A DNA stretch of 64,000 nucleotides from Nereocystis luetkeana (Eukaryota > Sar > Phaeophyceae > Laminariales > Laminariaceae). The stretch lies in NCBI GenBank assembly GCA_031213475.1, contig JARUPZ010000017.1:10109087-10173086 (forward strand), read 5' to 3'. The translations under genes and the position numbers were made by a program. Under the pieces are notes generated by a model that ran no database searches, was not told where the DNA came from, and worked only from the letters and a program-made list of their open reading frames with translations. Positions 2,886 to 62,319 of the stretch are shown piece by piece. How positions within the stretch are numbered: position 1 is the first letter of the stretch; each line of letters opens with the position of its first letter.

Positions 2886-2918
2886 GACCACAACAAATGC
2901 CGCAAGAATGGACTACAG

Positions 2919-3165
2919 ACCCGTTCTACGATAGAGGTAGCACATTTCCGCTATTTCGTTTTCTGAAAAATGGGGTTTCTTGACCCCATATTGTCGGAAT
3001 GCCTGTCTTGACTTCGAGAAAAAACGTTTTGTAGACTCGGGCCATGGGACTATTCGCCGCGATGCTATTTTATTTTTGCTGAAGTCAGTTTTCGGGTGGA
3101 GCATGGAGCTCCTTAAGTGAGGAGCCTCAGAAAAATTGGGGTGAACCTCTATCGTAGAACGCCTC
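2919..3165 (+). mobile_element. family B inverted-repeat element, copy 1
   Basis: Termini are GTTCTACGATAGAGGT and its complement ACCTCTATCGTAGAAC. The core includes GTCGGAATGCC, GGGCCATG and TTTTCGGGTG. It has no coding capacity and lies 33 bp right of family A copy 1. Confidence 0.75.
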
Positions 3166-3205
3166 TAAAATATTTTCGCTCTAACTTGTTGTTAGCATAC
3201 TGCAG

Positions 3206-3547
3206 TAGAGTAGGTTTAGCAATCTGGGAGAAGGGATCTTTAGAGATATTTTTGACTTGGAAACTGCGTACCGTGGTCTACACTTCGGAATCGTCGTTCG
3301 ATACTCAGAACATTCCTGGTTCCATGCAAACGTGGGGCAGCCACGTTTTTCTGGAGAGTTTTGGTCTGTTTCGGCTGCGGTTTGGGGTCAGGGTTGGGGT
3401 TAGGGTTAGGGTTAGGGTTAGGGTTAGGGTTAGGGTTAGGGGTTGGGTTGGGTCTTCGCCCGTACCTTGATCCCAACAGAAACCAAAACACCCGAACAGT
3501 CTACCAACCTAAATATCGCCTTTCCCATATACTGTTAAAGGTGCTCC
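3206..3547 (+). mobile_element. family C element with internal TTAGGG repeats, copy 1
   Basis: The left end TTTAGCAATCTGGGAGAAGG is the approximate complement of the right end. The middle carries about seven perfect TTAGGG units (3400-3441), then GGGTTGGGTCTTCGCCCGTACC. Compared with copy 2 the similarity spans the whole unit including both ends, so the telomere-like tract belongs to the element. Confidence 0.75.
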
Positions 3548-4980: not shown

Positions 4981-5299
4981 GAGTATGTTTAGCAGTCTGG
5001 GAGAAGGGATCTTTCGGGATGTTTTTTACTTGAAAAATGTGTAGCGTGGTCTGGACTGCGAAATCGTCGTCCGCATCTGAGAAATTTCTTGATTCGATTC
5101 AAACTCGGCGTAGCCGCGTTTTTGGCGAGTTTTGGCCCGTTTCGGCTGGGGTTTGGGGTTAGGGTTAGGGTTAGGGTTATGGTTAGAGTCAGGGGTTGGG
5201 TTGGGTTTTCGCCCGTACCTTGATCCCAACAGGAACCAAAACATCCGAACAGCCTACCAACCTAAAGATCCCTTCTCCCAGATTGTTAAAGGTCCTCAT
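4981..5299 (+). mobile_element. family C element with internal TTAGGG repeats, copy 2
   Basis: The ends TTTAGCAGTCTGGGAGAAGG and its complement CTTCTCCCAGATTGTTAAA are strong inverted repeats. The tract near 5159-5188 has three perfect and two altered TTAGGG units at the same place as in copy 1. No coding frame. Confidence 0.78.
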
Positions 5300-8200: not shown

Positions 8201-11200
8201 CGTTCACATCAATAGCTCCTGAAGGCATTGAGGTCCTTCGAAGGTCGGTCACTGCCATCAACGTCCCTGCGCGCTCACTCGTCGGTCGAGCACGCGGCGA
8301 TGCAAGAATTAGAGAGAAAAAAGAACGTCACATTTATACATTAGATAGCTTCTATGTACGTTGTCCTAAAAAATTACGTCACAGATCGAAACAACAGAAT
8401 TCAATCTCAACGCATGCCCTATATTCTACACGATCCAGTCAGGTTCAGTTAAAACTTTATTTAACCATTCCGAAAGTGTGCGCAGACGTGCTTGGCGCCA
8501 TTCGAGCACTGACACGCGAAGTATGACCCCAAGACACATTCGGGTTGCGCGTTTCGTCCGACCTAAACCCGACTGACGGGCCTTCGCAATTGGAGATCCG
8601 CCCCATATAACTCGAGAACCATTAGTGTTACACAGTAAAATCGACAAATGGGTAGGCCAAAAAAAACTTGATCACTGCATGTAGCGTGCATATTTCTAGA
8701 GCGGTGATTTGCGTGGGTTACAGTTTGTTTTGCGTGAAGTGCGTCGGCAAACGATGGCGCATTCCTACCATAGCATGCATCTCCTTGACTTCCGCTGACA
8801 ACCGCTTCGTTGGGCAAGAAAGTCATCACGATCCAATAAGCGCGTTACGGAATGAACGCGCCTGAGGCTTCCGTGTTATATTGAAACGATCGATATTTAT
8901 TCTGCATGTTCTACTTCACCGGAGTTGCATCTGTTCGGAAGATGGGGGAAACTTCCCTCCTGGACCAGTCCTACCCTTATTGATTTTATATCTACTCGCT
9001 ATTCTCTTCGGCAGAGTGTAACCGGGAAAACAACGCATACATACGCATGCTACGTGAACTTTACACCCCCTTTTCTTTGTGTCTCCTCGCTTCAGAAGGT
9101 ACTGGTGTCATGGAAACCCACTTGACCTCAAATATGTTGTACCTTCAACCTGATTAACTATATCATGGCTTGCTGTCAGTATCTTACGAAGTATCGCATA
9201 TATAAACCATAGGGTTCCAACGACAATGGTTGTTCTCGGCGGCGGCACCACGCCAGCGCACGAATACGAGCGACAGAGGCACAACGTCTACTCGATACCC
9301 ATGTGCTGTAGTATCCATACCGCACATTGTCAAAACTTGAGAGGAGTGCTCGGAAAATGACTGCTGCATCTAAATAATACAACCGCTACAGAGTAACACC
9401 GGCGATACGATCTAGCTGGCAGGATACGGGGGAGGGGTACGTACTGACTTCATGACGGACACGGTAGGCTATACACCGTCACTAGGTTCACCGCACGTGT
9501 GTAGAGAGGCCGTGGCCAGCCCTTTGATAGTTTGACAACTGAGTTAAAGCCATTTTAGAGGTAGGATGGTCGGTGTGACTGGTAACAATACGGAATCAAA
9601 CTCATCAGACATACGCGCGCAAAACGTGCTTTGTGCGCCAATGTAACGGGGTACAGTACTTTTTAGTTGTTGTTTTCCTTTTAATCTTAGCAGTAACTCT
9701 GACCTGGGGTCACATGGTAGGCTCGTATCCCCCCTCCCAACTACTTAGTTTTCTTCGAATGCCTATCGCGAGAAGACTGCAGCCCTTTCTTCTCCTCGCC
9801 GACTGGCGTCTACTATACTTCACAGCGTGAACTAATGTACCAAACTACCGGGCATGCGTCGGTGGATGCGGGAGTGTGCCTGGGGTACTGATCCAACTGC
9901 ATCCTCCCCCGGACTGGTCCCCAAGGCATGTTGGTAACCATTTCGGGACTGCAGGCGGAAGATGTGACCACATATACGATGTTTGCTACAGCATTGGCCG
10001 CATTTTGTGCAGACGGGAGATACTCGTTGGGGCACCATTGATTTACTGGTCGATCTGCGGCGCAAGGTGTCGTGCGATATTCGCGCTGCACGGTCAACTC
10101 CCCGCGGTCCAGCACACTCGCAACCACGCAGTTGATACGACCACAATATCCATATGCAGTTTTTTGTTTCCGTACCACGGGATATTTCCTAGATTTCATA
10201 GCGAGTACCTCGCGTGTTTACGCCTGGTTGGGTTTCATCACAGCACGACGGCGCCGGTACGAGTGAGCATGCCAACCAAACCCAGCCATATCACGGAATT
10301 TTCGGTGAAGCCTCCATGTGATAAAAAATACTATCGCGCAATAGCAGAGGTAGGAGCTTCCGCTTATACTAACCGAGAACCACTTCCTGTAACTCGGCAC
10401 ACATTCAATTAAGGGGACGCACGTCGGTTAGCCCACAATCAGGATCATGAAACTGTCGATCGATTGTAAGTATATGATATTCAGGGTGTGCATAGTTCAG
10501 ATTGAGCTAGGGTAACATGTCGCATACCACCCGGGGTACGCGACGCCCACCCGGCGGCAATGTTCAATATTTTTGCTCTGCAAGAACTAGATTACGAAAG
10601 GGAAATCGATTTTCTGTCGTAGCTGTGGAACGGTCGTACCACATGGGAAGCGTTTGACGTTTTTTTGGTTGTAGCTTGCTAGTTTCAAGCACCGACCGGG
10701 GTCTAGTGCATTGTGACCGCCACCATCGAAAATTCGCCGTGGGTAAAGTGAAATCGCAAAATATCGTATCGGATGTTGGCGGAGATGTTGTACTATTCTG
10801 ACAGAAGAAGCCGTTGGAACGAACTTTCGCAACCGTGAAGAGTGCACGTACTGCATTTTTCGCCTATGAATCGCCCAGTCAGTCTATGTGAAAAGACACG
10901 GTTTAAATGGGCAACATGTATAGCCGACACCGTGCGGTATATGCATCACCATCGGTCGTTTAGCGCAGAAGTGTAAACAAATACCGATCTATCAACGCTG
11001 CCGTACAAGCCACCGAGGCACGGCGCCTCCGGTGTAAGTAAACCGTGTTGGGGAGGTGTGTCTCTAAGGGCTTTTCACGTTTGAGACATGAATGTTGTCA
11101 ATGCTTGGGCTCGTCCACCGCGGTGCCATCCAAGGCCTTTATCTCTAACCCAAACCAAATCATTTTTTCAGAGTAGGTACCAACGAACCCCCTCGGGATT

Positions 11201-15025: not shown

Positions 15026-18000
15026 CTTGGGAATGAGGTCGGTTGACCAGTTGTGTGATTGTGCGCGAGTTGGGTGGTGAGGGAGTGACGGGAGAGTGTG
15101 GGTACGGTGATATGAATTGTTGTGTGCTGGACACACCATTTCCTCCCCCCGATCGTAGTAGTCGTGTCAATACTTGAATAAGTAGAGGTAGGTGTAGCTG
15201 TCGTAGTGTTCTCGGGGTCAATTGGTGGATTATTTCCCCTTCCTGTCGAGATGGAAATTGCGTTCATCTTAGTACAAACCTACGTGGGGTGCCTGTAGCC
15301 CATCGCGCTTATTTACTGGAGACATTACGTTCATTGGTTTCTAGATGTCTCGTGTCTATTGTGAAGGCGAGCAGCCCCATATCTTAGGATAGCGTTGGGG
15401 TGGAGGGGGGACGATCAACGATTCAGATTGCGTGCCGTACAGCAGGAAACCTCTGGTGCTCAGATCGTTTCGCGGCTTGCGTACTTTCGGCACCTTGGTG
15501 ACAATTGAATCGCAAGTTTGCCACATTAAAGAGAAGCTGAACTGGACGCTATCCGTGATCGCTTGCAAAACCCGACCGAAAACGTCAACCAACACACATC
15601 CTATCCTTATACCGCTGAACTGCGCGCCACGAGCCGTAAGGGTGGTCCCTCCGGCGCACGTGCAGCCGACGTCGACTTGTGGCAAATATATATATATATA
15701 TGAAGGAACAAGTTATCTTCGTCGCACATGAGAGCCAAACACATTATTCTTCGCGGAACACCGGCAACCAAACTCCCATCCAAGGACACGTTACACGATA
15801 GAGGTGGCGCATTTCGGCTAAAACGTTTTCTGAATGACAGGGGTCCCTCAACCAAAAGTCGTCGGAATGACAATCTGGTTTCGGAAACGGCGTTTTTTGT
15901 AGACTTGAGCCATGAGATACGTTCCTCGGAATGCTATCTGGGGTTTGCTAAAGTCGGGTTTCGGGGGGAGGTAGAGAACTCTTAAAGTGAGGAGCATCCG
16001 AGAAGTAAGGATGAAGCTCTATGGTATATCGCCTCCAAGAAGTGTCTAGGAGAGAGCGCACATGTTTTGTATATCGACGGCAGAACGCGGCGCCGCAGTC
16101 ATAGACGGGTGTCGGGCAGCACCATGACGTACGAAACGTGTTGCGATACCAACAGTTGGTATCAAAATAGTTGCCTCAGCGCAAACCGTTACGCAAGATT
16201 TGACCCCAGGCTAAACGTGGTCGCAAACCCAGAGAAACATATTCATGTTGACATGGAAGTGGTCACGGGTCGTGGTGCTGGGAGTTAGGGGAAAGTCGTG
16301 GGGACCCAGATGCAAGGAAGGGCCAGAGCGCCCCAATGGTACCCTTGCCAAAATACGATGCGGAGGATACCCGACCAAGCGGACGGGGAATTGGTGGGGT
16401 GTCTCTGGTGCACCCATCGTCACCACCCACCCTCCCTCCCTGCTGCTCAACGTGGATGCTGGCGCACAGAAATACAACCCAGCCTAACTCATATTAGCCC
16501 AGCCCATCCCACCTCAAGCGAACCAATCACAACCATCGCCACCGCATCAAAAGGCAACCCAACCCAACCCGACCCAACCCAACCCAACCTACCCGAACAC
16601 AGCCTGCTCAACCCAACCATGCTCAACACAACCATAGCTCGAACTCGCTTACCGGCGTCGTATGCAGGCGGGTAGACCGTTGTCGATCGCTTCTTCTCCA
16701 ACCTCATGGTGTCTATGCCCACGAACGCATCATTAGTGTTGACTGCAAACGTTAATCCAACGTCAACACAGGACGACGTCAGCAAGGGGAAGCAGAGAGG
16801 GTTGTTGGTGAGGCGCTTCAGGCATTCATGCCCGTTTGGAATCGCGTGATGGCCTGAAAATGTGTTTACCGGCCAAAGTAAGCACATAGGTTGTTGAAGA
16901 AAACGAACACGCGGCATGTCGATGCCGTGTATGGCGCACTCATGGATTTTTTTGTTTGTTTCAAACCGTATGTGGTTATGGAATATTATTGAAATACTTG
17001 AGTTACCTGGCGCATGAACTGACGCATCTACTATCCCCTTAACCCCTTTAGTACCGCAGTCCCGATTTGGGGACAAACCAGTCTAATTCCAAGTTAATTG
17101 TCCCCAAAACGGGACTGGGGTCCTAAAAGGGTTAAGCATTCCAAAACAAAACAAATACACACGGCCTCATGAGAAAGAGTCATAGTGATGTTGTCCTATA
17201 GTCGGACTGGTGGTATGTCTTTCTTGAGGGCTGTCCAACTCGTTTATTGCTGTATTCGTTGCATTCTCTACCAGCATCGTTTGCGGTAGAACTTGAAAAC
17301 GCCAAAGAACGTTCACCGCGACAACCCAGAATAATTCCGAAGGGCCTTCAATGTGTCCCGACCAATGCCGTCCTCGTTTTCAAGGGTGAACAGCGAGCAG
17401 CTTTTTGTTCTGATCACGACGATGCAGTAGCGCTGCGTGTCGACAACGACGCACGAACCGCACCGGCAGCGGGGAACATCCGTGTGGCACCGATCCCCTA
17501 ACTAACGACCGCGAACATGACACGTTTCAGTTCAATGAGTGACCCAACATGATTTGGCCGAAAAGGGGGACGTCAGAGGGAGCTACGTAGAGGATGCTTC
17601 GACCATACGGGCATGGTACATTGACAGGTAGATGAAAGAACGTACGAAGCGTGCTTCCAAGATGGAGACGCGAACAGGAATAGTTTAAATATGCTAACGC
17701 ACGAGCGATTTCAACCGGTGTCGTCGTATGTGAACGGAGCATTGAGACAGTAGGGGTGGCGCCTCGATGTCTAAGCTCGTTCCACGAAAATCTCCAAGCA
17801 TCACCCGAAACGCGGGTTCGAAATGGTTTCCTCGAGGACGCGAACAAGCTTTTGTTGCGCTGGTCTCAGACAAAGAAATCGTTCAAAATATCACCTACAG
17901 CATCGATCAAAACGCTGCAATCTCAACATCGCGTCCAATGGATATAGCTTTCATCTCGTGGCATCTCCGTTCGATGGGGTATCATGTCAACCATCCTTAT

Positions 18001-31536: not shown

Positions 31537-32002
31537 GGTGAGGCTGATGATCTTGGGGTCTTGACCTGGTCGAACGTTAAGATGCCACAGAGGAAGGTAT
31601 GCGCGAGGGAGTGTGTGGGGGGGGTGTTGGATACGCGACGCTATTGATTGTTCTGGCTAGTCGCGCTGAACTAAAGCAGTAAGTCACGTATCGCGCAGTG
31701 TTAAGGGTAGGTGGACTGGCGGTATTATCGCTTTGGAACGAGCTGCAGAGCGATGCGAGATTTTTCTCGTGGGTCTTGCGCAACGGAATCTAGAACGTAC
31801 CACATCATATTCCACAGGTTTACTCGTAAGAAAGGTCAAACCATCTCACCGAAGAATATTATTTTAGATGAATCTCTCTGTGGCGTAGGTTGGTGGCCAC
31901 AGGGTAGATTCAATACGGACAATGGTTGTACTAGGTGTCGACGGGTAAAAAGCACGATCCAATGTTAAGAACACACACACAAGTATATGAAACGGCACTA
32001 CG

Positions 32003-32116
32003 TTTACGGGGGACCATAGTTAATACCTCGTAGGAACAAATATTGTTGGTAAAAATGATTCAATATACAGGTTTTTGTGTATACCATACGTGCTATTAAC
32101 TCTGGTCTCGCGTAAT
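32003..32116 (+). mobile_element. family D inverted-repeat element, copy 1
   Basis: It begins TTACGGGGGACCATAGTTAATA and ends in a diverged complement (CTATTAACTCTGGTCTCGCG). The interior CAAATATTGTTGGTAAAAATG matches copies 3 and 4. Confidence 0.7.
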
Positions 32117-32849
32117 AGTCGCTGCTGGGTCGGTTGAAGACGCACAAATGCGGCCATGAACATACGTGACCACCTTTGATGATGCACTACAGAATACCAA
32201 ATACGTACGCATATGGCACGTGAGATTAATATGTACCGGCATTAGTCGGCGCTGTACGTGATTCGGCAACCCGAAGGTGTATCGATGAAGCGATCTACCT
32301 GGTACCTGGTATATACTAAGCATGTAGCTATGTTGCAAACCATCGTTCCCACGGGTAAGGCCTGTAGGTTCCGATTGTTTTGAAGATAAATACGATCTAT
32401 ATTTTTCGTTCGGTTCAATTTCTACCTGATACATCGAAAAGTGATGCACGAAGCACGCGTTTTGAACTGAAACTCGAAAAAAAAGTGGAAAAAAACGAAT
32501 TCAACTAGACGTCTTTCATAAATTATTTAGCTCTTCCTGTGATTCGATTTTGTTTGGGAGTTTGCCCAACTACACGTGTCATGTTCCCGAACCCGATGCA
32601 AGCCACGCAAACTCGAGCCGTGTGGTTGACTACTTTAAAGGCGAGATGCACCTTTCCCGAGGGGCTGGGCCACCGGAGCAGCCGCAGGGCGATGTCAGAT
32701 GGCCCCCATTGTGCTACAGAGTCGACGAGATCTGCGGCGCCTGAAAATCTCCAAGGCCGTGTTAACCCCAGTTCTTCGTCCATGTATGTTTGCCCTGCAA
32801 ACAAACGACAACAATCACCGACCAGGTCACTGATTCGTTCGGGATTTGA

Positions 32850-35426: not shown

Positions 35427-35679
35427 CGCATTTTACGACAGAGGTAGCAGCAATCCGCTAAAACGTTGCCTGAATGACAAGGATTATATAACCCAAAATC
35501 GTCGGAATGACTGTCTGGTTTCGTTTTTAGCTTTGGTTTCGTATACTTGCGCCATGATATTGATCCATCGGGATGCAATTTGATTTAAGCTGAAGTCCGT
35601 TTTCGGGTGAGGTATAGGGTTCCTAAATTGAGGAGCCTCCGAGAAGTGAGGGTGGGCCTCTATCATCGTAGAATGCCTC
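35427..35679 (+). mobile_element. family B inverted-repeat element, copy 3
   Basis: The left end reads TTTTACGACAGAGGTAGCA and the right end CCTCTATCATCGTAGAATGCCTC. The core matches copy 2 closely (ATCCGCTAAAACGTTGCCTG). Confidence 0.7.
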
Positions 35680-38600
35680 TGCTCGTCTGTTCAACAACCT
35701 TGATCATCCGTGTCATGTGTCAAACGGAATGAACTATCATTGTCCTCATAACTTGGTCGATTCATTATTCGGTAGTGAGTTTGGGCATGTCGAAGTGACT
35801 CTCTTGACGATTATGTCGGTTTCATATTCCCCGGTCGGCGTGGTTTTAAACGTAATCCACACGTCCCCCTTCATCAACGGAACTGTGCCACGGCCGCCCT
35901 ATACGACAGTTCTTGGTCGGTAAAACCGCCGAGCAAGCGGGCACCTACCTATGACGAACCCGTTCAGCGCGGGACATGCACAGGCGATTTCCCGGGGACG
36001 GTTCGCTCTCTCCCCGGGAGCGGGGGTGGAACTGGTCACTGTATTCGCGATATACCCACCTACTATAAATCTCAAACAAAAAAATGACTAAGCAAGCAGA
36101 AAAATGTGTCCAGGGTAGTTTCGAGCTAAACAAAATCAAGACCAAATGCACATATTATTTTTCTAAAAGTCGCAAAAAAACGTGAAGAGTGTGCGTTGTC
36201 TTCAGAATATATCGTCTTTTTGAACCAGTCTCATCATCAGTACACCCCCAGTGTCCGCTCTGGTTCCTTATCCTAGAGATATACATATTGTGTGGTCCAT
36301 GACTGTGATGAGACAGAGGAAGACCAAAACAATATATATCGTAAATGCATGGGTCAAGCAAGTAAACTGCCGGCGTACTGGGTACAAAAACACAACATCA
36401 CAAGCAAGACAAACAATTAAGAATATAAAGACATCCAAACAACTGTAACCCTGAAACAAGTGACAGAACAGAATGAAATTGACGCAAGGAAATCAGAGAT
36501 AGATGCTGCTACACGGAAAGTATACAAGTACTTCGGAAGGACAAATAAATGGCTCCTACACGGACGAGCCGACAGTCGGGAGGGGACTATACCGGCAGAG
36601 TAGGGGCGGCGGGAGGGGAGATGATCCAAAGGGCACTAAATCCAAGATGTAACCTCGGAAAGACAATATATTCAGTATCGAATGGCGAAGAACGGAAAGA
36701 GGGATTTCCGACAAAGTCAAAGCCCCGAGGTGGATCGATGTACGTGATGCTCTACTTTGCGCACTTACTTCATTAGCACTCGGTAGAAACTTCGAGAAGA
36801 GCAAAATTGTCACACGAACTTTTAAATAGGTGATTTGGGAAGCCGACTGCTGCTCCTCTTTCTTTTCAGGTGGATAGGGTGGGGGTAATTGTCTGTTTGG
36901 ATGTTAGTAGTGTCGTTTTTCGTTTTTTGTTGTCAGATTACACAATGTTTTTTGTACTTACTTTTTGAGGTTCATATTTTTTCGTTTTCATCGTTATGAA
37001 GTACTTTCTTTCGCAGATAATTCAGCTAGGGAGAGGCGATTCTTGTTAATTTTACGTTCAATTCGGTTTTGGTGGGTGCTTGGTTTGAGAGTGGGTGCGT
37101 CAGTGGGTTAGTCAATGGGTTGGTGGGTGGGTGTCTGTTGTCGCCCGCTTTACCGGCTCCGCTCTGGAACAGTTTGACGTATGTGAACTATACTGAATAT
37201 TGTAGAGGCAAAAAAAATATTTCCGACTGGGTCATTTTGAATAGGTCGTATGGGACTTAAACAGATGGGTGTCTCTTTTCCGAGGTACCAGAGACATATA
37301 TATTTCGAACACGACGGATAAACGGGCGTGACAGACGGACGCCTTATCACAACGCAGTGCTGGACCCAATACAACGGGATTGGCAGGTTTATTGTAATCT
37401 CCGCCTATCGCCCACACATAAAAACCCGGAACTATTAATAGCTGTTGTATAGCGTGCAAGCTATTATAACTATTGGTTTACAGCAGTCGGTCGAACCTTG
37501 ACACAAACATTGAAATCAGCGTATACTTATCGAGAATGTGGGCGTTTCGAAACACTGCGTGTAGGTAAGAAAGCGTACTAGAGCAGTACCGCTATTATTT
37601 CATATGTGGTAGCTTCATCAGTTGACACTTGTTTCGGTAGGTCTGTCCTCTAACGATTTTGATCGCTACAGATGAAGGACGTGATAGGCCGTCTGCCAAC
37701 CACAAGAAAACTGAGGAGTCTTTACAGCGGGATATATATGGGGAGGTCAACTCCAATAATCTCTTAACACATACATACGGATACGGAAGTCTACATGTAT
37801 GTATGTAGATATATATCTGGTGCATCACACAGATACCAGCTAGGTGTCAACAAAGTTCATGGTAGTTAAATATGATCGGTTTATTTCAAACATCGCTCCA
37901 ATGCATGATGAATGCCGTCGAATATAGGACCCGTCTACAAGCTGGTGATTTCTATCATGTAATGTAGACTTAATAGCTACCATGAACTTGGACCGCGCAC
38001 GCCCCACTTTTTTCTCCAGAATACAGATACTATCCTTGAAATATACAGCTTGTTATTATTAGTATAATTAGTTATGCGATAGCATTGTCCAAAATATGTA
38101 CTTAAACGAAACAGTAGTGCATCGCAGGTAGCAGATATGTATTGCGCAAGCTGGAAAAAAACGCCTCCACTCTGGCAAGCTACGTCCCACATGGGAAAAT
38201 ATAATTATTTCCAAATATATATGTGTAGAGGCATCAACTTTTTGAATTTTGCAGCTTCAGGTTTAGAGTTTTTTTTTAATACAAGTAAGTGTAAATCCTG
38301 CCGAACGCCCTCGGCAGTGATGATGGTGATGGTTTCCAAATACATACGGGTATTGTTTAAAACATTGATATCAGGTACCTGGTCTGAAATAAATACACAC
38401 CGAACCAGTCCTGAAACGCACGTGGCGGCCATCACTCCGTGTGCACGTACTCGTAGACTACGGCAGCAGCCAGTCACAATGCAAAATCAAGGGTTCTGTC
38501 AAAATTAAATGTCGTTGTTAGAAAATGTGTAGTGACAAGGTCATGCGTGAGGTTGTTTCTTATCTGTGCGCTTCAAATTATGGGCTTCAGATCTTGACCC

Positions 38601-40329: not shown

Positions 40330-40355
40330 CTGGCGGAAATCACCAACATATAACA

Positions 40356-40589
40356 GAGGCGTTGTACGACAGAGGTAGCACATTTTGTGAATGACGGCGT
40401 TCCTCAAGACAAAATCGTCGGAATGCCAATCTTGTTTCGATAAATCATGTTTTTGTATTCTTGGGCCATGTGATTCTTACTCGGAATGCAATTTGATTTT
40501 CGCTGAAAACGGTTTTCGGGTGAAAAATGGAGCTCCCTAAGTAAGAAGCCTTGGAAATGTTTGAGTAAACCTCTATCGTAGAACCCCTC
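40356..40589 (+). mobile_element. family B inverted-repeat element, copy 4
   Basis: The left end GAGGCGTTGTACGACAGAGGT and right end ACCTCTATCGTAGAACCCCTC are near-perfect inverted repeats. The core GTCGGAATGCC and GGGCCATGTG is present, with a 5' internal deletion. It starts 26 bp upstream, in transcript sense, of the orphan spondin exon. Confidence 0.75.
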
Positions 40590-41340
40590 GAAATCACGAG
40601 GTTCAGGACAACAAACACACCACGACCTTCGACCTTTACACTACATCGAGCAAACGGTGAGGGTTGCACTGAATGGAAGACGAAGGGGGCTAGCCCTGGA
40701 CCTCTGATTGTATTCGGGTTGTAGTTTAGGCTAGCTCATGTAAATGTTGGCCGCACTGCGTGAACAAGCTTCTCTGTAGTCATTTTTCTGGATGTTGGGC
40801 TCTTTACTCGTGTGACCAATGAAGTGCCTCCTTTGCGTTGGGATTGCCCGTGGCAGGGTTATGTTTGCTTCTACCAAGTGATTGATCCGGTTTTTGAAGT
40901 ATATCGCAAATTCAATTTTCTCGGAGTTGGATAAAGGCGCCAAAATGGACCCTTTAGGCGGGTCTACTCTATAGCCAAACTCCGATTGTAGGGCGCAGGT
41001 CACGGTGAGATGAGTTTCGGGTGGCAAGCCAGGGGACAAGGGTGAATAAGGTGCGAACTATGTAGGGGTAGCTGCCTATTCGATGTTCCCCCGGAAAAGA
41101 TGGCATTTTCTCAAGGATCCACGTCGGATACGGGGGATAATAGTCGGTCAGTTCGGAGCAAAATACCCCCGACCGCCCGAGAATAATGACCGTGCAAGCT
41201 CCCACATTAAACTGGTAGCGGACAGCTGCTTGCATCCGTTAACCGTCGCAACGTACTGCAGCACGAGAAAGAAGAAGAACAGTTCACCAATTAAGATTAC
41301 TACCCCGGAGATTTTTTTTCCCAAACAATCATGTTTTTAG

Positions 41341-46424: not shown

Positions 46425-46714
46425 AAAGGGTAGGTTTGTCCGTAGACGAGGTAACGGCCTCCGCAAACGAAGTAACGGACAAAGCAGGGTTTATTGGTAG
46501 AGAGAATGTGGCATGTCCGTATCGGGAACTGGGAAAGAGCAAGTTTGGTTGGAAGGGAAGGCCTCGCACGCAGTCCTTCGAAGCAAAGCACCGAGCGTAG
46601 GTCAGCATCCCCACGCCGGGCACGAGCAAGCACGAGGTCCTGTGACGAGCACGGGCAGACGTGAGGTAATCGCTGGTATGTCGATCCAAGCCAGGAATTA
46701 GTGCCTTATTTTCC
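46425..46714 (+). repeat. terminal repeat A1
   Basis: This 290-bp repeat begins AAAGGGTAGG and ends TTATTTTCC. It is matched at a constant offset of 7,123 bp by A2 with no difference that I can see. It marks the left end of the element. Short open frames inside it are identical in both copies and look non-coding. Confidence 0.9.
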
Positions 46715-47426
46715 CTTTCCTCCCGTCTCTACTCCGGCCCGGCTGGGACCACGTACTGAGGGCGGGGGCGAGCTGACGCGACTTTGGTGATCGGGGGGGA
46801 TTTGCTGCGAGGACTGGATTCAGCGAGTTCCAAAAAAACAAAACACACGGTATGTCATGTGTAGTGATTGTCGACTGACGATAAAGTGCTATCTAACGAT
46901 AGGCGAAGAAACGATGAGTGGGAGCGGCGACCGCGTCCCAGTAACGGGAGGCGGCCCGTTTAGAGAAGAAAGAACCCGTACGGGTTGGGGCACCCGCTCA
47001 CACGAGAGCACGAGCATAGACGTGGCTGTACGGGTGGGAAGCAGCGCGACGCGGGTCTTTGTCTCGAGGTGCATACATGCACATCGAAAAGACGCTATGA
47101 TACATTCCTGAAGGCGGCAGAGGGAGGACGCGTGGTGGAGACAACGGGCGCGCCAGTGTACGAGAGAGAGCAAAAAAAAAAAAACGAAAAAAAACGCATA
47201 CGAACTGATACCTGTTACCTGGTTCGTATTGATCTATGGGCACATCCCACAACATACACCCCAGACCACCGGATCACCCAGGCAGGTAGGTTTGGGGAGG
47301 TCCCAGGACGCTTGTATGCTGCTGTGTACAGTCAGCCCCCTTTTTCACGCGACCGAGAAGGCAAGCACAAGTTCATGATACTCATGGAAACATTTCGAAG
47401 TAATGGCCACTACTGTTGGTAGTATA

Positions 47427-49440
47427 ATTTGAGTCGGTGGAGACAGCAGTACACTGCTGTATGCGATGGAAACATGCCGTCGCAAGACCGACACGGTGTT
47501 GTTTGCTGTGGAGACGCAGCCTCGTTACTAGCTCTGGGCATGATACTCATGGAACCATGCCGGACTATAGGCCGCTATAAAAATAATGAGACTAATAATA
47601 ATGATAATACTCCGGAGTAGAAAATAACACGCAGCACAGCAGCACAGACCGGTCGGGGTTTTCATAAACGTGATAACACAGGAATGCGATGGGCACTGTA
47701 TAATCAGCCCGGGGTACAAGAAAAGGGACGAAAAGGAGAGCAAATTGTTTCGTATACGCGTGAACGGGGGTTTCCATAAACGTGATAAAACAGGAATGCG
47801 AGGGGCACTGTATAATCAGCCCCGGGGTACAAGGAAATGGACGAAAACGAGACGAAATGCTACATGTACCAAATATGATGTGGCTGTAGACTAAATTGAG
47901 TCGGTGCACAATGGAGAGTGGGCGACAATTAAGAAGAAAACAAAAACATGTTGACGCACGACCGACACGGGGTTGCTTGCTGTGTGTGGAGACACAGTCC
48001 GGCTGCAAGCTCTGGGCCTGATACTCTTGGAAATATGACGAAGTATCGGCCGCTATAATAATTTGAGTTGGTGCGCTGTGGAGACAGTTCTGCTGTGTGC
48101 GATGAAAACATATCGACGCACGACCGACACGGTGTTGCTTGCGGTGGAGACACAGTGTAGTTACAAGCTCTGGGGCTGAGACCCATGGGTTCATGCAAGG
48201 TACCGGCCGCTCTAATAATAATTATTATTCATGTCATCATATTACGGGGGACCATAGTTAATAGGACCTATGGTGTACATAAAAAAAAAAAACTACCAGG
48301 TATATATATTTAACCTTCTTCTACTAACAATATTTGGTCCTATTAACTATGGTCCCCCGTAATAGTAATTTGAGTCGGCGTGCTGTGGAGACAGTACTGC
48401 TGTGTGCGATGAAAACATATCGACGCACGACCGACACGGTGCTGCTTGCTGTGGAGACACAGTCTGGTTACAAGCTCTGGGGCTAAGACCCATGGACTTG
48501 GGAATATGACGAAATATCGGCCGCTATAATAATTTGAGTTGGTGCGCTGTGGAGACAGTTCCGCTGTGTGCGATGAAAAGATATCGACGCACGACCGACA
48601 CGGCGTTGCTTGCTGTGGAGACGCAGTCTGGTTACAAGCTCTGGGGCTGAGACCCAGGGAAACAGGCAAGGTACTGGCCGCTCTAATAATAATAATTTTT
48701 GATATCATCATACCTGGTAGTAATTTGAGTCGGCGTGCTGTGGAGACACTACTGCTGTGTGCGATGAAAACATGTTGACGCACGACCGACACGGGGTTGT
48801 TTACTGCTGTGGAGACACGGTCTTGTTACAAGCGCTGGGCCTGATACTCTTGGAAACATTACGAAGTATTGGCCGCTATAATATAGTTTGGGTCGGTGCG
48901 CGGTGGAGACAGTACTGCTGTGTGCGATGCAAACATATCGACGCACGACCGACCCGGTGTTGTTTGCAGTGGAAACACAGTTTGTTTTTACAATCGCTGG
49001 GCATGATACTCATGGAAACATGCCGGAGTATGGACTGCTATAGTAATAATTAGAGTCGGAGCGCTGTGGAGACAGAACTGCCGTGTGCGATGATGGAAAC
49101 ATGTGGACGCACGACCGACACGGGGTTGTTGGCTGGGGAGACACAGTCCTGGTACAAGTTCTTGGCCTGAGACTCATGAAAACATGCAAGGTATTGGCCG
49201 CGATAAAAATAATGATTCAAGTCGGTGCGCTGTGGAGCAAGAAAACTGCTGCTATGCGATGAAAACATGTCGATGCACGACCGACACGGTGTTGTTGGCT
49301 GTGGAGACACAGTCCTGTTACAAATTCTTGGCCTGAGACTCGTGGAAACATGGAAGGTATTGACCGCTATAATGCTGTGTGCGAGTACAACATATCGACG
49401 CACGACCGACACGGTGTTGGCCGGCTGTGGCGACAGCAAG
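47427..49440 (+). repeat. tandem array, about 165-bp units
   Basis: About ten diverged units begin near 47427, 47895, 48063, 48367, 48531, 48723, 48885, 49051, 49215 and 49371. Each contains GCTGTGGAGACAG, GATGAAAACAT, CGCACGACCGACACGG, a second GTGGAGACACAG and GGCCGCTATAAT. Interruptions: a two-copy repeat of about 112 bp at 47650-47850 and a family D element at 48241-48362. Open frames across the array repeat the same peptide with drift and are not taken as genes. Confidence 0.85.
48241..48362 (+). mobile_element. family D inverted-repeat element, copy 2
   Basis: Ends ATTACGGGGGACCATAGTTA and TAACTATGGTCCCCCGTAAT are perfect inverses. Part of the interior is inverted relative to copies 3 and 4. 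It is inserted in a spacer of the 165-bp tandem array, so it arrived after the array formed. Confidence 0.85.
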
Positions 49441-49736
49441 GGGCCGGCTCGCTGTGGAGACAGGGAGGGCTTACCCAGGTGGAAACACACGAGGAAAATA
49501 TTCCGGCACGACCACATGGGTAGGCAAGAAGAGAGTAAAAAAAAAAACGAAGAAATAAAGAGAAAAGAAGGAAGAGCAGGAAGGGCTTGTAGCCTAGATT
49601 CACGGATCCGTAAAAAAAAAATCCCGTTGGTTACGTGCCGGATTCCGTATTATACTGGGTACGTGCGTTCAATTTCCAAGAAATAGCAAAAAAGTACCCG
49701 GCACCGGTAGCACCGCAGAGAGAAATACAAAATCGC

Positions 49737-49761
49737 GGCACCCGACGAGTAGTCGGGTGCC
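49737..49761 (+). repeat. perfect 10-bp stem hairpin
   Basis: GGCACCCGAC, a five-base loop GAGTA, then GTCGGGTGCC. It lies inside the retroelement between the two tandem arrays. It is not followed by a T-run and its role is unknown. Confidence 0.6.
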
Positions 49762-50234
49762 CCACGTCACGTTAAACTAGGGTACCGAGATACGGCTCAC
49801 TGCGACCGCGGGAAGGGCACCCTACATCTATAAACCGAAACCAACGGCTACACACGTTGGGGCCGGTGCGCGACTGTTTGGGGTGGGGAACCCCCAACCA
49901 AGAATAAAATAAATATACAAAAAAAAACAATAATAATAATAATAAAAGGAAAACTCTATATCTTCACGGAGCTCGAATAATGGGGATAACCGAGCGAATT
50001 ACATCGACACTGATCGAGAAAGACATTCTTATACGCAACGCCTGCGAGGTAAATTCCCTGCTGCTGTTGGCCCTGTTTCCAGAATTTGTGTTGGGCAGGG
50101 GGAGTATCCCTTGCCACGGGACGCACGGCCCATGCCGTTCGGCGTGAGTCGTGCGCCCCGTCTGATAAGCACGTTTTGGACAGGGCGGCGGCCTACGCAG
50201 AAGCAATTATCTCAAATAAGGAGTTGCGAGCAGA

Positions 50235-50259
50235 GGGGGGGGGGGGGGGGGGGGGGGGG
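50235..50259 (+). repeat. run of 25 G
   Basis: Homopolymer inside the retroelement, just before the second tandem array. Its length may be affected by sequencing error. Confidence 0.85.
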
Positions 50260-50426
50260 CACAGCGCTGCGACGCCCCCCCACCTTCTCCACGTTGGTTT
50301 GTTGGTCGGGATGCTTGGCTTGACGCCCATGTGTTCTGAATTATCCGCCCAGGGGCTGGGCGGGAGAAAATACACCCGCGTGTGTGTTGCAAAGGGGGCG
50401 CGGGAGGGGGGGGGTGTATATACATT

Positions 50427-51070
50427 TTTCACCATCAGGTACGACCATCAATGAGCTCCCCGTTGTGGAGACAACGGGGAGGGAGCAGGTCTGCTGTGGA
50501 GACAGCGAGCACAACTGCCCATATTTGGTTTTGTCGATTACCCGATGTAAACACTCCGATGTATGACCATCAACGAGTTCCCCGCTGTGAAGACAGCTGG
50601 GGGGGGGGCGGTACGCTGTGGAGACAGCGGGCAGAACTGCCCACATTTGGTTTGGGCGAATACTCGACGAAAACATATCGATGTAAACCAACAGTGAGTT
50701 CCCCAGCTGTGGAGACAGCGGGGGGGGGGGCAGGTCCGCTGTGGAGACAGCGGGCACAACTGCCCGAGGGTGACGTTGTCCCCCGCATGCTCGACCTTGC
50801 CAGGAAGGCATGAAAACATATAAATGCACGACCGCCAAGGAGTTGCCCGCTGTGGAGAAAATGGGGGGGCAGGCTCGCTGTGGAGACGGCGGGCACAACT
50901 GCTCGAGGGGGTGCCATCCCTCTCCGTCATTGATTTTTGTTATTTTTATAAGTTTTTTTTTAGGGGGAGTACACGATGAAAACACATCGGTGTACGACCG
51001 CCGATGAGTTGCCTGCTGTGGAGACAGTGGGGGACGGGCTCGCTGCCAAGATTGGGGGGCAGTACTGCTC
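50427..51070 (+). repeat. tandem array, about 125-165-bp units
   Basis: Five units start near 50440, 50563, 50685, 50825 and 50990. Each has a GACC-ATCAACGAGTTCCCC-like start, two CTGTGGAGACAGC blocks separated by a G-run, then GCACAACTGCCC. It shares AAAACATATCGATG, CACGACC and the GGAGACAG block with the larger array, so the two are related. It lies between that array and the recombinase. Confidence 0.8.
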
Positions 51071-52091
51071 GAGGGGGAGCTACGACGAGGCCACGTCTCA
51101 GCTCATATTTCAACTTTTCGTTGCACAGTTTGTTATCTTGTCTCCGCACCTACGTTGCCCAGATGAGGGCACGCCCACGGTGGGAATGCAGGAGGCAGAG
51201 GTGGGGACACCCACCCTTACCATTGCCCACCGTCACACATGCGGCATTGACCCCCCAACAAACACGAGGGGGACATAGTTCCGCACTGACGATAGCCGGG
51301 TGTTCTGCGAACGTTGGCGGTCGATGTACTGCACGAACATTTCCAACCTGCCACATGGTACAACTCATGATTCGGGCTTCCACGATCTACGGTTACCCAT
51401 TTTATATTTAGCTACTTTATCCTTCGTTTCTGGCTTATTTACTCTGGAAACACGAGAAACGTGCAGATGAACGGTTCCGGCGCGGAAATCAGATCGGTGT
51501 GCTGATAAAGTGGCTACCGCTAAGGCTGTTCACTTGACATCCTGATGGTTCGTGGTATTCCGACAGCCCTTGGCCACTGCTAATTCCGGGGGGGCGTGAT
51601 GCACCCAAGGTGTGCTTACTTTTCCGATGGGGGAGGGCATTCATATACTGGTGCCGGTGATTTGGTGTGCCGTGCTTCTAATCAGTCTAGTTCCCCCTTA
51701 CAGGACGGTCAACGTGGATACAGATTGGTATATCTGGCGAATATTTTTGTCGATGACAGACTGCACCGTTGTACAGACAAATATCGGGTCGTCGCGTCAC
51801 ACAGCACGCACACTGGGCAAACCTCAAGTCTCTATGGGGGGCAGAGCTAGACGTTGGAAGATCAACCCTTGCGACTCCACACCGTTGTAAATTCATCGGT
51901 GACCCCCCCCCCCCCCCCCCCCCCCCCGTCGCGCCTGCACACTCCGAGCGCGTGTCTCTGGCGTCGTTGGCAGCGCTCATACACGGGATACAAGCTGGCC
52001 GGCCACTGTTTCGCGTGGAGAGAGCACGCGCCTGCCGATTAGGACGCAAAGGTTTCTGCAGCAGCTACTTCCGCGCTCGGATAGGGTTTGC
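51071..52091 (+). other. retroelement internal region without recognisable RT
   Basis: In an Ngaro-type element, reverse transcriptase and RNase H would lie upstream of the recombinase. No x-x-D-D block in a plausible context and no RNase H motif were seen here or at 46715-47426 and 49441-50426. Confidence 0.5.
51903..51927 (+). repeat. run of 25 C
   Basis: Homopolymer inside the retroelement, after the second tandem array and about 180 bp before the recombinase remnant. Confidence 0.85.
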
Positions 52092-53264
52092 TTGGCACTG
52101 GCCCACGTGACGGTCGGAATGCCACGATGCGTTCGACCACCGGTGTTATTCGGAGCAGCGCCTGGTGGAGGCGAGGGCGGATCTTTGTACCGACATCTTG
52201 GCCTCCAGTACGTTGGGGGTTCAGTTGCGAGCTCGAATAGGCGTACGTACGAGTCTGGTCGCCGATCTTGGAATCCGTTTCGCAGGTTGATGGGTTGTTA
52301 GTAGTTCTCGGCATCGAGTGATTCGAAGAGTTTTGAAGGATGGGCGTTGATCGAGTTGGTATCGTCGTGTCGTGCGTCGGAAGGTAACCTGGCGAATATG
52401 ATTCCCGGTAAATACGCGGAGGTGCAGTATTCCCATCAATTGAGGGTAGGAGTGGAGCTGCTGGTCACGGCTCCGGTTGTCCAGTGTGCGCTCAGGAGTA
52501 TGGCACGGACCCACGTGACGGCAGGAACGCCACGCCGCGTCCGCTTACCGGTGCCGTTCGGTGGAAACCCTCATTCCCACGTGGGGCCCGGAGGGGAAAG
52601 TTTTGTGGTTGTGTCTGTGTCCGAGTTACTTCTTGATGACGCGTTCGGACAAAATGTTCACCGCGGATTCGGGGGCGGTGCACCCTTTGCACTGCCCGAC
52701 GCGAGGTGACATGGCGTTTTTCGCCGAGGGCACACAGTTAGGAGAGAGGCGTAGGCAACAACCGGACAGGGTAGAGGCGCGGTTTAAGGGGCATAAGGGG
52801 GATCAGGAACAGGCTGGCAGTGTGCGCGTGCGGACTCGAAGTGAGGTTCGCGGGCCAAGGTCGTCCTTTAGGGCAGACGGCGGGACCGTTGCCCTTATGT
52901 TGGAGTTGAGGTCATGCTTCCCTGGTTTTCTCGACCATGCCCCCCTGTCCTCGTATCAATGTGGCAAGGCCATACGAGTGGTAAGGTATGGCCGTGCCCG
53001 TAGAGCACTCAAGGAGGTGGCGGCGAAGTCAGGTCGGAATGCCGATGAGTTCGCCTTGCACTCGTTGAGCATAGGAGCCACGACCACGCTCGCGGCGGGG
53101 GGGGAGACATAGCGGAACGAGTTATCCAGAGAGAAGGGAGGCGGAGGTCTGACGCGTACGAGGTGTACACTTGTAATATCATAAAAGATTCCACGAGAGT
53201 GTCACGTAAGCTGGCGAGGGCAAAGGTGGAAGGGAGGGAAGGAACGGCGGGGGGTAAGAAATAA
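52092..53264 (+). pseudogene. tyrosine recombinase of the retroelement, broken
   Basis: The remnant runs in three pieces. Frame 1, to about 52560, has two adjacent TAG stops at 52299-52304; it includes SSNRRTYESGRRSW and the core-binding part (GKYAEVQYSHQLRVG, HVTAGTPRRVRLPV). A shifted frame runs 52561-53105. The first frame resumes at 53106 and ends TAA 53262-53264. Catalytic landmarks seen: first Arg in LMTRSD (codon 52642), Lys region KGHKGDQEQAG, His in ALHSLS (codon 53059) and the nucleophile Tyr in SDAYEVY (codon 53157). The second catalytic Arg of H-x-x-R is Ser (AGC, 53068). Known: this is the tyrosine recombinase architecture (R, H-x-x-R, Y). Its job would be integration of the element's circle. 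Two stops, two frameshifts and a lost Arg make it inactive. Confidence 0.8.
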
Positions 53265-53304
53265 CTAAGAGTACGTCAAACAGTAGCCTCACATCACCTC
53301 GGGG

Positions 53305-53550
53305 TTGGAGGAGTCGAATGGTACCGTACCATTCGGAGGCTTGGTTATCCGAGACAACTGTAGGCCGTACTAGTTAGGAACCCGGCCGGTATAATAGGAG
53401 GGAGAGAGAGACGTAGAATTAGAGTGGTCGAGATATCCAGGGTATTGCAGGAAGCTGCGATACAGGTATCTGGCCGAGGGGAGGAACCTCTCTCTCTCCC
53501 ACGACACAGGAAACGATAATGATAATGCAATTCGAAAGATATACAATAAA
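53305..53550 (+). repeat. terminal repeat B1
   Basis: This 246-bp repeat begins TTGGAGGAGTCG and ends ATACAATAAA. It carries a perfect palindrome of ten-base arms (53315-53335) and an AATAAA at its end. It starts 40 bp after the stop of the recombinase remnant. It overlaps A2 by the three bases AAA. Confidence 0.9.
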
Positions 53551-53837
53551 GGGTAGGTTTGTCCGTAGACGAGGTAACGGCCTCCGCAAACGAAGTAACG
53601 GACAAAGCAGGGTTTATTGGTAGAGAGAATGTGGCATGTCCGTATCGGGAACTGGGAAAGAGCAAGTTTGGTTGGAAGGGAAGGCCTCGCACGCAGTCCT
53701 TCGAAGCAAAGCACCGAGCGTAGGTCAGCATCCCCACGCCGGGCACGAGCAAGCACGAGGTCCTGTGACGAGCACGGGCAGACGTGAGGTAATCGCTGGT
53801 ATGTCGATCCAAGCCAGGAATTAGTGCCTTATTTTCC
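53548..53837 (+). repeat. terminal repeat A2
   Basis: Second copy of the 290-bp A repeat, abutting B1. The B1/A2 joint reads AATAAA/GGGTAGG. This is what would form if B2's right end and A1's left end were joined in a circle. Confidence 0.9.
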
Positions 53838-53886
53838 GCCGCCCCACCCCCCCTATTTTTTCTTTCGAAGGGGGGGGGGGGGAGGC
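53838..53886 (+). repeat. C-run/G-run hairpin between A2 and B2
   Basis: GCCGCCCCACCCCCCC faces a run of 13 G ending AGGC across a short T-rich loop. It fills nearly half of the 110-bp spacer between the last two terminal repeats and could fold into a strong stem. Confidence 0.6.
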
Positions 53887-53947
53887 ACGAGTAGCCGGGG
53901 GTACGGAGGAAATGTCTTTCCTTCCGCTAGGGTTTACTTTAGTTAGA

Positions 53948-54193
53948 TTGGAGGAGTCGAATGGTACCGTACCATTCGGAGGCTTGGTTATCCGAGACAA
54001 CTGTAGGCCGTACTAGTTAGGAACCCGGCCGGTATAATAGGAGGGAGAGAGAGACGTAGAATTAGAGTGGTCGAGATATCCAGGGTATTGCAGGAAGCTG
54101 CGATACAGGTATCTGGCCGAGGGGAGGAACCTCTCTCTCTCCCACGACACAGGAAACGATAATGATAATGCAATTCGAAAGATATACAATAAA
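53948..54193 (+). repeat. terminal repeat B2 (right end)
   Basis: Second copy of the 246-bp B repeat, 643 bp downstream of B1 and apparently identical. It ends AATAAA next to flanking CTAGTAATC. The palindrome recurs at 53958-53978. Confidence 0.9.
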
Positions 54194-60100: not shown

Positions 60101-61334
60101 GGACTAAGGCCGCGGACGTTAGTTAGCTCTCTCCTCGCGTCACGAAACAGTGGAATTACGTGCAGTACGTAGTGTCAAAGTACTGCGCTCTGTCCGGAAA
60201 CCTGAATCTGGGCGAATTCCGAAGAGCTTTGTTTTCGCAGCGGGAGTGCGGTCGTTGAGGCGTAAGACCACCCTATCGAATAAATAACAATGCGATCAGA
60301 ACTCTATGTCTTATGTTCTTCCAACATCCCCTGCCCGGGCCTGAGAATCCGTTGTCTTCGAGGCCTACGGGAATGTGTAAACGTGGCAAGCAAGAACAGC
60401 AATGTTGGTGGATCCGAACTGGCTTGTACTCCGTTTTTCCGTGACTCAGCCTCTAGAGGGCAGCTCCTCCTAGAGGGGTTCCTTGTACGTAGAAATATTC
60501 TACGGTAGAACACGCAATATATATTATGATAAACCCTCTCGCATAATTACCAAGAAGAGGCGTTTACCAAGCTAGATTTTCCCGATAACGGCGAGGGCCT
60601 AGACGCCGAACGATGCGTACATGCAACTCTCTCGGCGAAATATCTCCAACGCCCCCCATGTTCGTTGCGTGTGCCCCCCATCTTTTCGAGGAAACCGGGT
60701 CTGGAATGTGCCCTACCGTTGGGGGGGGGTGTTCTCTCGAGTGTGATTCGGTACTCGGTGCTGGATGACAGGTAACAATATATTACCGTATCACACTGGG
60801 TGATACGACAACACCCCAAACCCCCAGGGACGAATATCAGACCCGGTTTCCTCTAAAACGTGGGATGCACATGCCACGAATACGTTTGGCTTTCGAAAAC
60901 AATCATCGAGAGGGTTGCATAGCCGCATCGGTCGCCGTACTCAGTACGCCCTGCCTGTGGTCGAGAAACCCAGCTGTGAAAAACGTCCGAGGGGGTCCAA
61001 TATTTCGTGTTTTACGGTGTAGAAGTACAATAGTTCTTATAGTGGAGTACAGATCAGGGGAAATGTTAAGGTGTGTCGTCAGTGGAAAAGTATGTTTCCA
61101 TATGCTACGAGTTTACATGTTTGCATACGCATATATATGGTATATACAAGAACACAAGAAGATATCACATTGTATAATACGTCGTTGGGGGTAGCGGGGT
61201 ATGATGATGTTAGCTTAGCGTCATGGAAGAATTTCTGAATTGGGAAATATGGAGCAGCAGCAGCAGTACCCTGCAGTACTCGTCCAGTTTACAAATCGCT
61301 GTTGCTGACGCACACTGACTGTTTAACTACTACT

Positions 61335-61448
61335 ATTACGGGGGACCATAGTTAATAGGACCAAATATTGTTAGTAAAAATGGTTGAATATATGGGGGTT
61401 TATGTATACCATAGGTCCTACCAGGTATTAACTATGGTCCCCCGTAAT
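61335..61448 (+). mobile_element. family D inverted-repeat element, copy 3
   Basis: This 114-bp element has perfect termini. The interior reads GACCAAATATTGTTAGTAAAA, then GTATACCATAGGTCCTACC. Confidence 0.85.
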
Positions 61449-62204
61449 CATACTGCTGCTGTGTACGAGACGAAGGGACCATAGCATGCTAACCCAGCAG
61501 ATAATTCGTTATTCGCTTGGGTTAGGGTTAGGGCTGTTGATAGGTTTATTTAAATATATTGGTTTCGCCCATCGCACACAGCAGTGGTTCTCGCCCATAG
61601 GGTCGAAAGTGTGGCCAGTTCCCCCAGAGAAATATCCCGGTGATATAAACGAAGGGAGAAGCCACAAGAGGCTTCGCCAAGTCGGTTGCACAGTAGTAGC
61701 GTGACCCCAACTTCCAGTCTGCAGACTTTTCGTTTTCGCGGATAGAAGCCCACTCACTCGATCGGCATCGGCAGTCAATATCGATAGTGGTAGCCCTCTC
61801 CCGTGGCGCCTGAAGTGCGGTGGTATAGGGTTGAAACCATGGCATGACGTCACGTACATCTAATCTGCACGGTCAGTGGCATTCTAGCGGTCAAGCCCTT
61901 AATCTTTTGCGTAAAAGGCGACGGTAGGTTGTTTGAATCCTGCGTGCCAGCCAAAATATTTGTTTTTGTAGCTGAAAAAAATACTTACTTGCTGACAGCG
62001 CCTACTTGGCGTAGTTCCGCGTCTAGTATTAAATTTAGTGAAACAATTCGACGTGGGACGAACAAAGAAAGGAGGATAATGCTACGCTCACTCCACGATG
62101 AAAAAGAAGGCATGCGCTGCCGCGGGGATGGGGGGGAGGGTGTTCTCCCCATGCGACCCCAGATTTGAAATACGAGGGGCTGGTGAACTATGGAAAATGT
62201 ATCT

Positions 62205-62319
62205 ATTACGGGGGACTATAGTGAATAGGAATAAATAGTGTTAGTATAAATAGCAATATATATAGTTTTTAGTCTGTTGTTGTGTTCCGTAGGTACTATT
62301 AAATATGATCCCCCGTAAT
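62205..62319 (+). mobile_element. family D inverted-repeat element, copy 4
   Basis: This 115-bp element has slightly diverged termini (GGGGGACTATAGTGAATAGG; AATATGATCCCCCGTAAT). It lies about 760 bp from copy 3 in the same orientation. Confidence 0.8.

Follow-up and report, generated by a model that had tools for sequence, protein, structure and literature searches.

The 64,000-nucleotide stretch of Nereocystis luetkeana DNA analysed here (the window; C17:10109087-10173086) contains, at positions 46425-54193 of the forward strand, an element of ~7.8 kb that very probably belongs to a young family of non-autonomous split-direct-repeat tyrosine recombinase (YR) retrotransposons with many copies, Ngaro-type by structure. 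Two repeat pairs are arranged in the order A1-interior-B1-A2-spacer-B2, and the original prediction, which was made from the sequence letters and described two apparently identical pairs in this order, is exact to the base: A1 and A2 are 290 bp each and 100% identical, B1 and B2 are 246 bp each and likewise 100% identical, the last 3 bp of B1 (AAA) are also the first 3 bp of A2, and a 110-bp spacer fills the gap between A2 and B2. The recombinase remnant predicted upstream of B1 is also present, as a frameshifted YR pseudogene. The features of the element are as follows (ORF, open reading frame; RT, reverse transcriptase; MITE, miniature inverted-repeat transposable element).

46425-46714 (+): A1, left terminal split direct repeat, identical to A2; left flanks differ between other copies
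46715-47373 (+): 5′ leader, parts of which align to the leader of the related locus L075
47374-49435 (+): tandem array 1, unit ~164-166 bp, also in the leaders of L075 and L076
48243-48359 (no strand assigned): MITE-like insertion within array 1, 117 bp, TA-flanked, terminal inverted repeats TTACGGGGGACCATAGTTA
49436-50413 (+): leader from array 1 to the gag start; 49985-50413 is 76% to L075 2822-3246, just upstream of gag
50414-51902 (+): segment without an L075 match, comprising array 2 (50439-51082, unit ~122 bp) and ~0.8 kb
51934-52002 (+): gag-start relic of 23 amino acids (aa), 65% to L075 gag aa 56-78, tblastn E 0.009
52093-52287 (+): RT/RNase H ORF relic, last 65 aa with an internal stop, tblastn 66%, E 2e-18
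52182-53261 (+): YR pseudogene, 77-83% to the L075 YR, E 2e-144
53305-53550 (+): B1, internal copy, identical to B2
53548-53550 (+): AAA core at the internal B1/A2 junction, the putative image of a circle junction
53548-53837 (+): A2, internal copy, identical to A1
53838-53947 (+): spacer separating A2 from B2; 29 of the 30 junction loci have it, at 92-100%
53948-54193 (+): B2, right terminal repeat, ending in CAAT + AAA; 29 distinct right flanks across the loci examined

The same arrangement is found elsewhere in the genome (465 Mb in 1987 contigs searched). A 22-mer spanning the B1-A2 junction occurs exactly at 52 places, with none in a reversed control; 25 further places match with one mismatch, but some of these are A1 ends, such as that of the window copy, and only the 52 exact places are counted as junctions. 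DNA searches scored the best 40 of 438 candidates for the A repeat, all of which match at 100%, and the best 40 of 667 for the junction, which match at 98-100%. Collecting full-length relatives had been proposed as a check of the layout, and six other copies (L039-L044) were fetched whole: five keep the complete A1-interior-B1-A2-spacer-B2 order, the exception being L041, which has no spacer or B2 beyond A2. The five complete copies are 7.4-7.9 kb in length and share 98.7-99.3% identity with the window copy over alignable bases, two of them (L040 and L043) having internal deletions. The B1-A2-spacer-B2 block is present in 27 of the 30 junction loci, window copy included, and not in L011, L028 or L038. 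There are also solo A-spacer-B units that lack the interior (1501-2147 in both L006 and L008, with a shorter form in L005), which appear analogous to solo long terminal repeats (LTRs).

On a separate contig, eight element junctions lie ~61-63 kb apart, with one gap of 117 kb, within C22:165677-654640. The seven of these whose flanks were examined have one right flank in common, so that a single insertion seems to have been multiplied here by tandem segmental duplication, in units of at least 60 kb; L018 and L019 also share one flank. Shared flanks do not appear to be general among the defective copies, since 29 distinct right flanks are found.

The ends of the copies fit those that a tyrosine recombinase would leave. 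In the window, A1 is preceded by target sequence ending in ...GAGTACAAA and its first 3 nt (AAA) are the presumed recombination core; CTAGTAATC follows directly after B2, and one AAA core is thus common to both outer ends. Among the loci examined, the 29 distinct right flanks have the core AAA in 28 cases and ACA in one, and the 12 distinct left ends have AAA in nine, with AGA, ACA and CTT once each (L020, a junction, is excluded from the left-end count, and the left core of L075, CTA, is counted apart). L040, L043 and L044 have AAA at one end and a variant core at the other, as would be expected if one of the two ends keeps letters of the target, and the AAA core would be preferred, and not required, by a recombinase exchanging strands over 3 nt. 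No duplication beyond this 3-nt core is visible when element ends are compared with flanks at the loci examined. The two identical LTRs and target site duplication of an LTR retrotransposon are absent: the repeats are split, and only the 3-nt core is shared.

The original prediction suggested looking for an autonomous version with RT-RNase H (RT/RH) and an intact recombinase, and such a version is found in the same genome. A pattern for LHSLRIG within a YR occurs at 100 genome places and at none in the control, and some of these loci share the B1-A2-B2 block of the window at ~94-98% and not its upstream interior. Among them, L075, with A and B repeats shared at this level and an intact-looking YR, is an element of 8.3 kb with A1, array, gag-like, RT/RH and YR ORFs, and B1-A2-B2 in order (all coordinates are those of the reverse complement):

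449-736: A1
1190-2341: tandem array
gag-like ORF: 493 aa, with a CCCH-type zinc finger
4678-6909: RT/RH ORF, 744 aa, YVDD
6663-7907: YR ORF, 415 aa, overlapping the RT/RH ORF
7951-8194: B1
8192-8478: A2
8539-8781: B2

The A pair and the B pair of L075 are 100% identical over 287 and 243 bases by self-BLAST, with 1 and 3 column differences, respectively, at full length. L076 has the same repeats and genes, with an interrupted RT/RH frame in a stretch that is partly N. The RT motif is present at 19 genome places and none in the control, with an intact-motif YR ~2 kb away in 16 of the 19 and a junction-like 22-mer ~2.5 kb away in 11; it lies within 4 kb of 11 of the 77 junction-like places. The RT-YR distance count covered the 86 YR places (of 100) that lie on contigs numbered below C41, the other 14 being on C41 or higher. 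The CCCH fingers of the L075 gag have Pfam E-values of 0.005-0.009, below curated cut-offs, and the L075 YR matches that of its paralogue L063 at 56% over 216 aa; two of eight aligned YR relatives match PF00589, both sub-threshold. Further YR families are present in the genome, with motif variants starting CTCCACTC, TTACATTC and CTGCATTC.

Two class labels, PAT and Ngaro, had been attached to the layout, and it is the Ngaro structure that fits better. L075 has the order A1...B1A2B2 with the internal copies downstream of the YR, and its gag, RT/RH and YR ORFs are on one strand and in that order (the RT match being sub-threshold and the RNase H presumed from sequence motifs). PAT fits less well, as no methyltransferase is detected by Pfam in the three L075 ORFs and its RT/RH and YR ORFs overlap. 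Methyltransferase absence separates Ngaro from DIRS/PAT elements, and the structural features of YR retrotransposons are described as homoplasious (both PMC4157794). On structural criteria taken from PMC4157794 and PMC8547959, L075 is Ngaro-like.

The description of the window element as a non-autonomous derivative is borne out by the dispersed copies with the same layout and by a relative with shared A and B repeats that encodes RT/RH and YR. In the six frames of the window element Pfam finds no convincing domain, whether of RT, RNase H or YR, and all that tblastn recovers of the RT/RH ORF is its last 65 aa, in agreement with the earlier view that neither RT nor RNase H is recognisable. The element is not autonomous: RT/RH is mostly gone, and the YR frame is interrupted by frameshifts and stops, with the arginine of the HxxR motif replaced by serine (HSLS) and GRW replaced by GRR. 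Pieces of the YR gave no useful matches in viral contigs, an ORF of L018 gave none in viral contigs, genome contigs or Pfam, and tblastn against phages and searches of PHROGs, Rfam and tRNA were without useful result.

The order in which these functions were lost can be read from a midpoint-rooted YR tree, for which 37 of 62 candidate loci were long enough to be kept, giving 38 rows (28 distinct) with the window. The autonomous-type loci L055, L061 and L068 fall on one side; on the opposite side L070 branches first, followed by L047, L066 and L073; these last three have the arginine codon (HSLR). They lack the gag/RT/RH interval and match the window continuously from position ~51551 on. The clade that includes the window has 21 rows (support 100/99), and 20 of these have serine, which was read in the tree alignment for 17 rows and separately for L018, L022 and L030. 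Because arginine is kept in L047, L066 and L073, which lack gag/RT/RH, and the serine clade is later, gag/RT/RH appear to have been lost before the YR arginine; and because serine is common to 20 of the 21 rows, the window family has probably spread in trans. The autonomous-type copies, with their near-identical ends, would be the obvious source of protein for the defective ones.

A mechanism of this kind can be outlined for the element. Its RNA would be copied by the RT/RNase H of a partner. Template switching through the internal B1-A2 block would then complete RNA ends that lie inside A1 and B2, and the product would be a circle in which B is joined to A. Recombination between the core at this junction and a target, carried out by the YR of the partner, would place A1 and B2 at the two ends and create no duplication beyond the core, and the internal B1-A2 block would be an image of the B2-A1 circle junction. 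The family itself would have arisen when most of gag and RT/RH was lost while the HxxR arginine was still present; the arginine would have been lost later, with copies continuing to spread, presumably in trans. A1 and A2 of the window share one variant that is absent from the seven other elements compared, as expected if both come from one template at insertion, and near-identity of the repeats at insertion is expected for both Ngaro and PAT elements (PMC6681497).

Several observations weigh against parts of this interpretation. First, Pfam support for the L075 proteins is sub-threshold or absent: RVT_1 is matched below threshold (E 0.0015, 18.7 bits, cut-off 29.6), the YR itself has no Pfam hit and its paralogue L063 matches Phage_integrase (PF00589) below threshold (E 4.9e-5, 23.6 bits, cut-off 27.1), RNase H, which has no Pfam hit, is presumed from sequence motifs, and PDB sequence searches gave no convincing relative. 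Secondly, the left cores of L041 (CTT) and L075 (CTA) are not AAA-like. Thirdly, A1 and A2 differ within copies, by 1 column in L039, L041 and L042, by 3 in L040 and by 10 in L043, with none in L044 or the window, so that a move does not renew the whole of A1 from A2; moreover, L041 and L042, inserted at different sites, have in A2 a common letter that is missing from the A1 of each, and that A1/A2 difference thus seems to have been inherited through transposition. This would fit the template-switch model only if no more than the start of A1 is completed from A2, with the RNA starting upstream of that A1 position. Fourthly, L025 falls within the serine clade yet carries arginine; its branch is longer, and it may be a recombinant. 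Lastly, L047, L066 and L073 read GRR for GRW, like the window, and their YR may already have been inactive, and the YR frame of L070 is short (57 aa); the time at which the YR was inactivated is therefore not fixed.

A Crypton-like DNA transposon, with a YR only and moving through excised and integrated DNA circles with no RNA stage, would account for a copy whose YR survives as a remnant and in which Pfam detects no RT domain, and the A1/A2 differences within several copies are not predicted by the recopying model alone. We consider this very unlikely, however, as gag and RT/RH ORFs are present in L075, which shares the A and B repeats, and both have left relics in the window copy; nor is it evident why an element moving as DNA alone should need an internal B1-A2 block. 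Nested insertions could by themselves produce direct repeat pairs, and the C22 copies suggest that segmental duplication occurs in this genome, but that two nested or recombined LTR-type elements, or an assembly duplication of the A2/B2 block, mimic split direct repeats here is exceedingly improbable given the 29 distinct right flanks and the same order at different sites in five of the six whole copies and in L075, independent insertions that contradict both.

The leader of the window element is unusual, and was compared in the window copy and eight others (the six defective copies, L075 and L076). The segment 46715-47373 is present at 98-99% in L039, L041, L042 and L044, at 97.6% in L040, and is missing from L043; the alignment to L075 covers 46427-46918 at 85% and 47048-47138 at 73%. 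The two related tandem arrays noted originally, taking up about 2.7 kb of the interior, are both real, and are 78% alike over the matched stretch (49389-49461 versus 50815-50887, E 9e-8). They are not confined to the window: array 1 is found in all six defective copies, partly deleted in L040 and L043, and has counterparts in L075 (at the position given above) and L076 (789-1955). The proposal that the element carries arrays instead of RT does not hold, since array 1 is also part of the autonomous-type leader and the arrays are therefore not a substitute for RT; the only unmatched part is the segment of array 2 and ~0.8 kb (50414-51902), for which no counterpart was found in L075. This segment is present at 98-99% in L039, L040, L043 and L044, with no gap there in L042.

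Copies also differ by insertions in the leader. The MITE-like insertion in array 1 is at the same site in L041, L042 and L043 and is absent from L039 and L044, which suggests that MITE-carrying copies have themselves spread; L040 lacks 302 bp surrounding the site. The same MITE-like repeat is present at four places in the window, the others being 31997-32117, 61329-61448 and 62203-62319. L040 and L043 share ~0.8 kb of extra leader at window position 49634, which contains array-2-like units and in L043 has no Pfam match, so that leader length varies between subfamilies.

A CTGT-GGAG-ACAG core is repeated in both arrays, L075 and L076. Folding compared with shuffles gave z-scores of -4.1, -1.7 and -3.0 for three of the five array 2 units, and of -2.4, -1.6, +0.4 and +0.4 for four of the nine array 1 units; on the opposite strand the values were -2.9 and -1.8 for array 2, and -1.6 and -0.5 for array 1. 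In counts of pairs the inner pairs are nearly invariant, and position 7 lies above all 2000 shuffles and its neighbours do not, the units compared being related to each other. The leader array is shared with the autonomous-type element, and a cis-acting role for it is plausible.

What the arrays do can be explained in more than one way. That they are promoter or enhancer repeats, or functionless satellite DNA prone to slippage, has about an even chance of being correct: they sit between A1 and gag, and internal deletions and insertions vary among the copies (L040 and L043), although array 1 is retained in all six defective copies, L075 and L076. A leader array acting as an RNA signal, with hairpins bound by the Gag or RT of a partner and kept because it secures mobilisation in trans, would find favour in the core common to both arrays and both autonomous-type leaders, in array 2 units that fold better than shuffles, and in the CCCH-type finger, albeit sub-threshold, of the gag ORF. 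We consider this doubtful, however, as two of the four array 1 units fold no better than chance and array 2 folds well on its opposite strand too, so that short DNA inverted repeats would explain the folding of array 2 equally. More specifically, we speculate that the arrays could be an addressing signal, their CTGT-GGAG-ACAG RNA hairpins being bound by the zinc-finger Gag of the helper, and that a second, more stably folding array let the defective family outcompete the helper for packaging and reverse transcription as a two-array 'satellite'; we regard this scenario as improbable.

LTR elements and DNA transposons are well known to have non-autonomous partners, but a phrase search of an open-licence library, which omits most subscription journals, found no paper on non-autonomous Ngaro or DIRS elements. 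The nearest conceptual precedent for the window element is TOC1 of Chlamydomonas reinhardtii, reportedly a split-repeat member of the PAT group that has no long ORF and carries internal tandem repeats. PMC3266345 and PMC4157794 place the TOC elements in PAT, whereas no methyltransferase is detected in L075, the relative of the window element. The Ngaro types 1-4 of Cafeteria burkhardae are described with the layout A1-[ORFs]-B1A2B2, Gag-like, RT/RH and YR ORFs in that order, an HxxR YR, and isolated 'solo AB' repeats thought to be recombination products (PMC8547959). The likeness extends to layout, ORF order and solo AB units (L006 and L008 here), but the window copy is without most of gag, RT/RH and a working YR; copies of Cafeteria type 2b lack ORF1, and the examined text of PMC8547959 mentions no leader tandem array. 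SIRE of Trypanosoma cruzi, a short derivative of VIPER, is similar in being a non-autonomous derivative of a split-direct-repeat element possibly moved by its full-length relative; SIRE corresponds to the region of A2 and B2, whereas here the whole A1-interior-B1-A2-B2 is kept, with several kb that are mostly non-coding (PMC6681497). In the brown alga Ectocarpus diverse Ngaro and PAT-like families are reported in one genome (PMC12477816), and this genome too holds several YR families, a comparison made by description and not by sequence; the examined text of PMC12477816 describes no defective Ngaro family with arrays.

Elsewhere in the window, interstitial GGGTTA telomere-like repeats are located at 3385-3453 and 5156-5207, inside a 343-bp repeat pair that is 80% alike, and a dispersed repeat of ~250 bp is present in four copies that are 70-75% alike (2915-3169, 15785-16038, 35431-35680 and 40353-40593). 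Relatives of the ~250-bp repeat also flank the element copies L025 and L038.

The window element, for all its unusual leader of tandem repeats, is a defective representative of a known class and not a new class. Because a helper-type element, intermediates that have lost gag/RT and kept HxxR, and a young doubly defective clade are all present in one genome, the order of loss is readable, and the shared and unshared letters of A1 and A2, together with the 3-nt core, test the circle-junction model on natural copies. Since helper-type and defective copies alike carry the leader array, its putative cis-acting role is testable.

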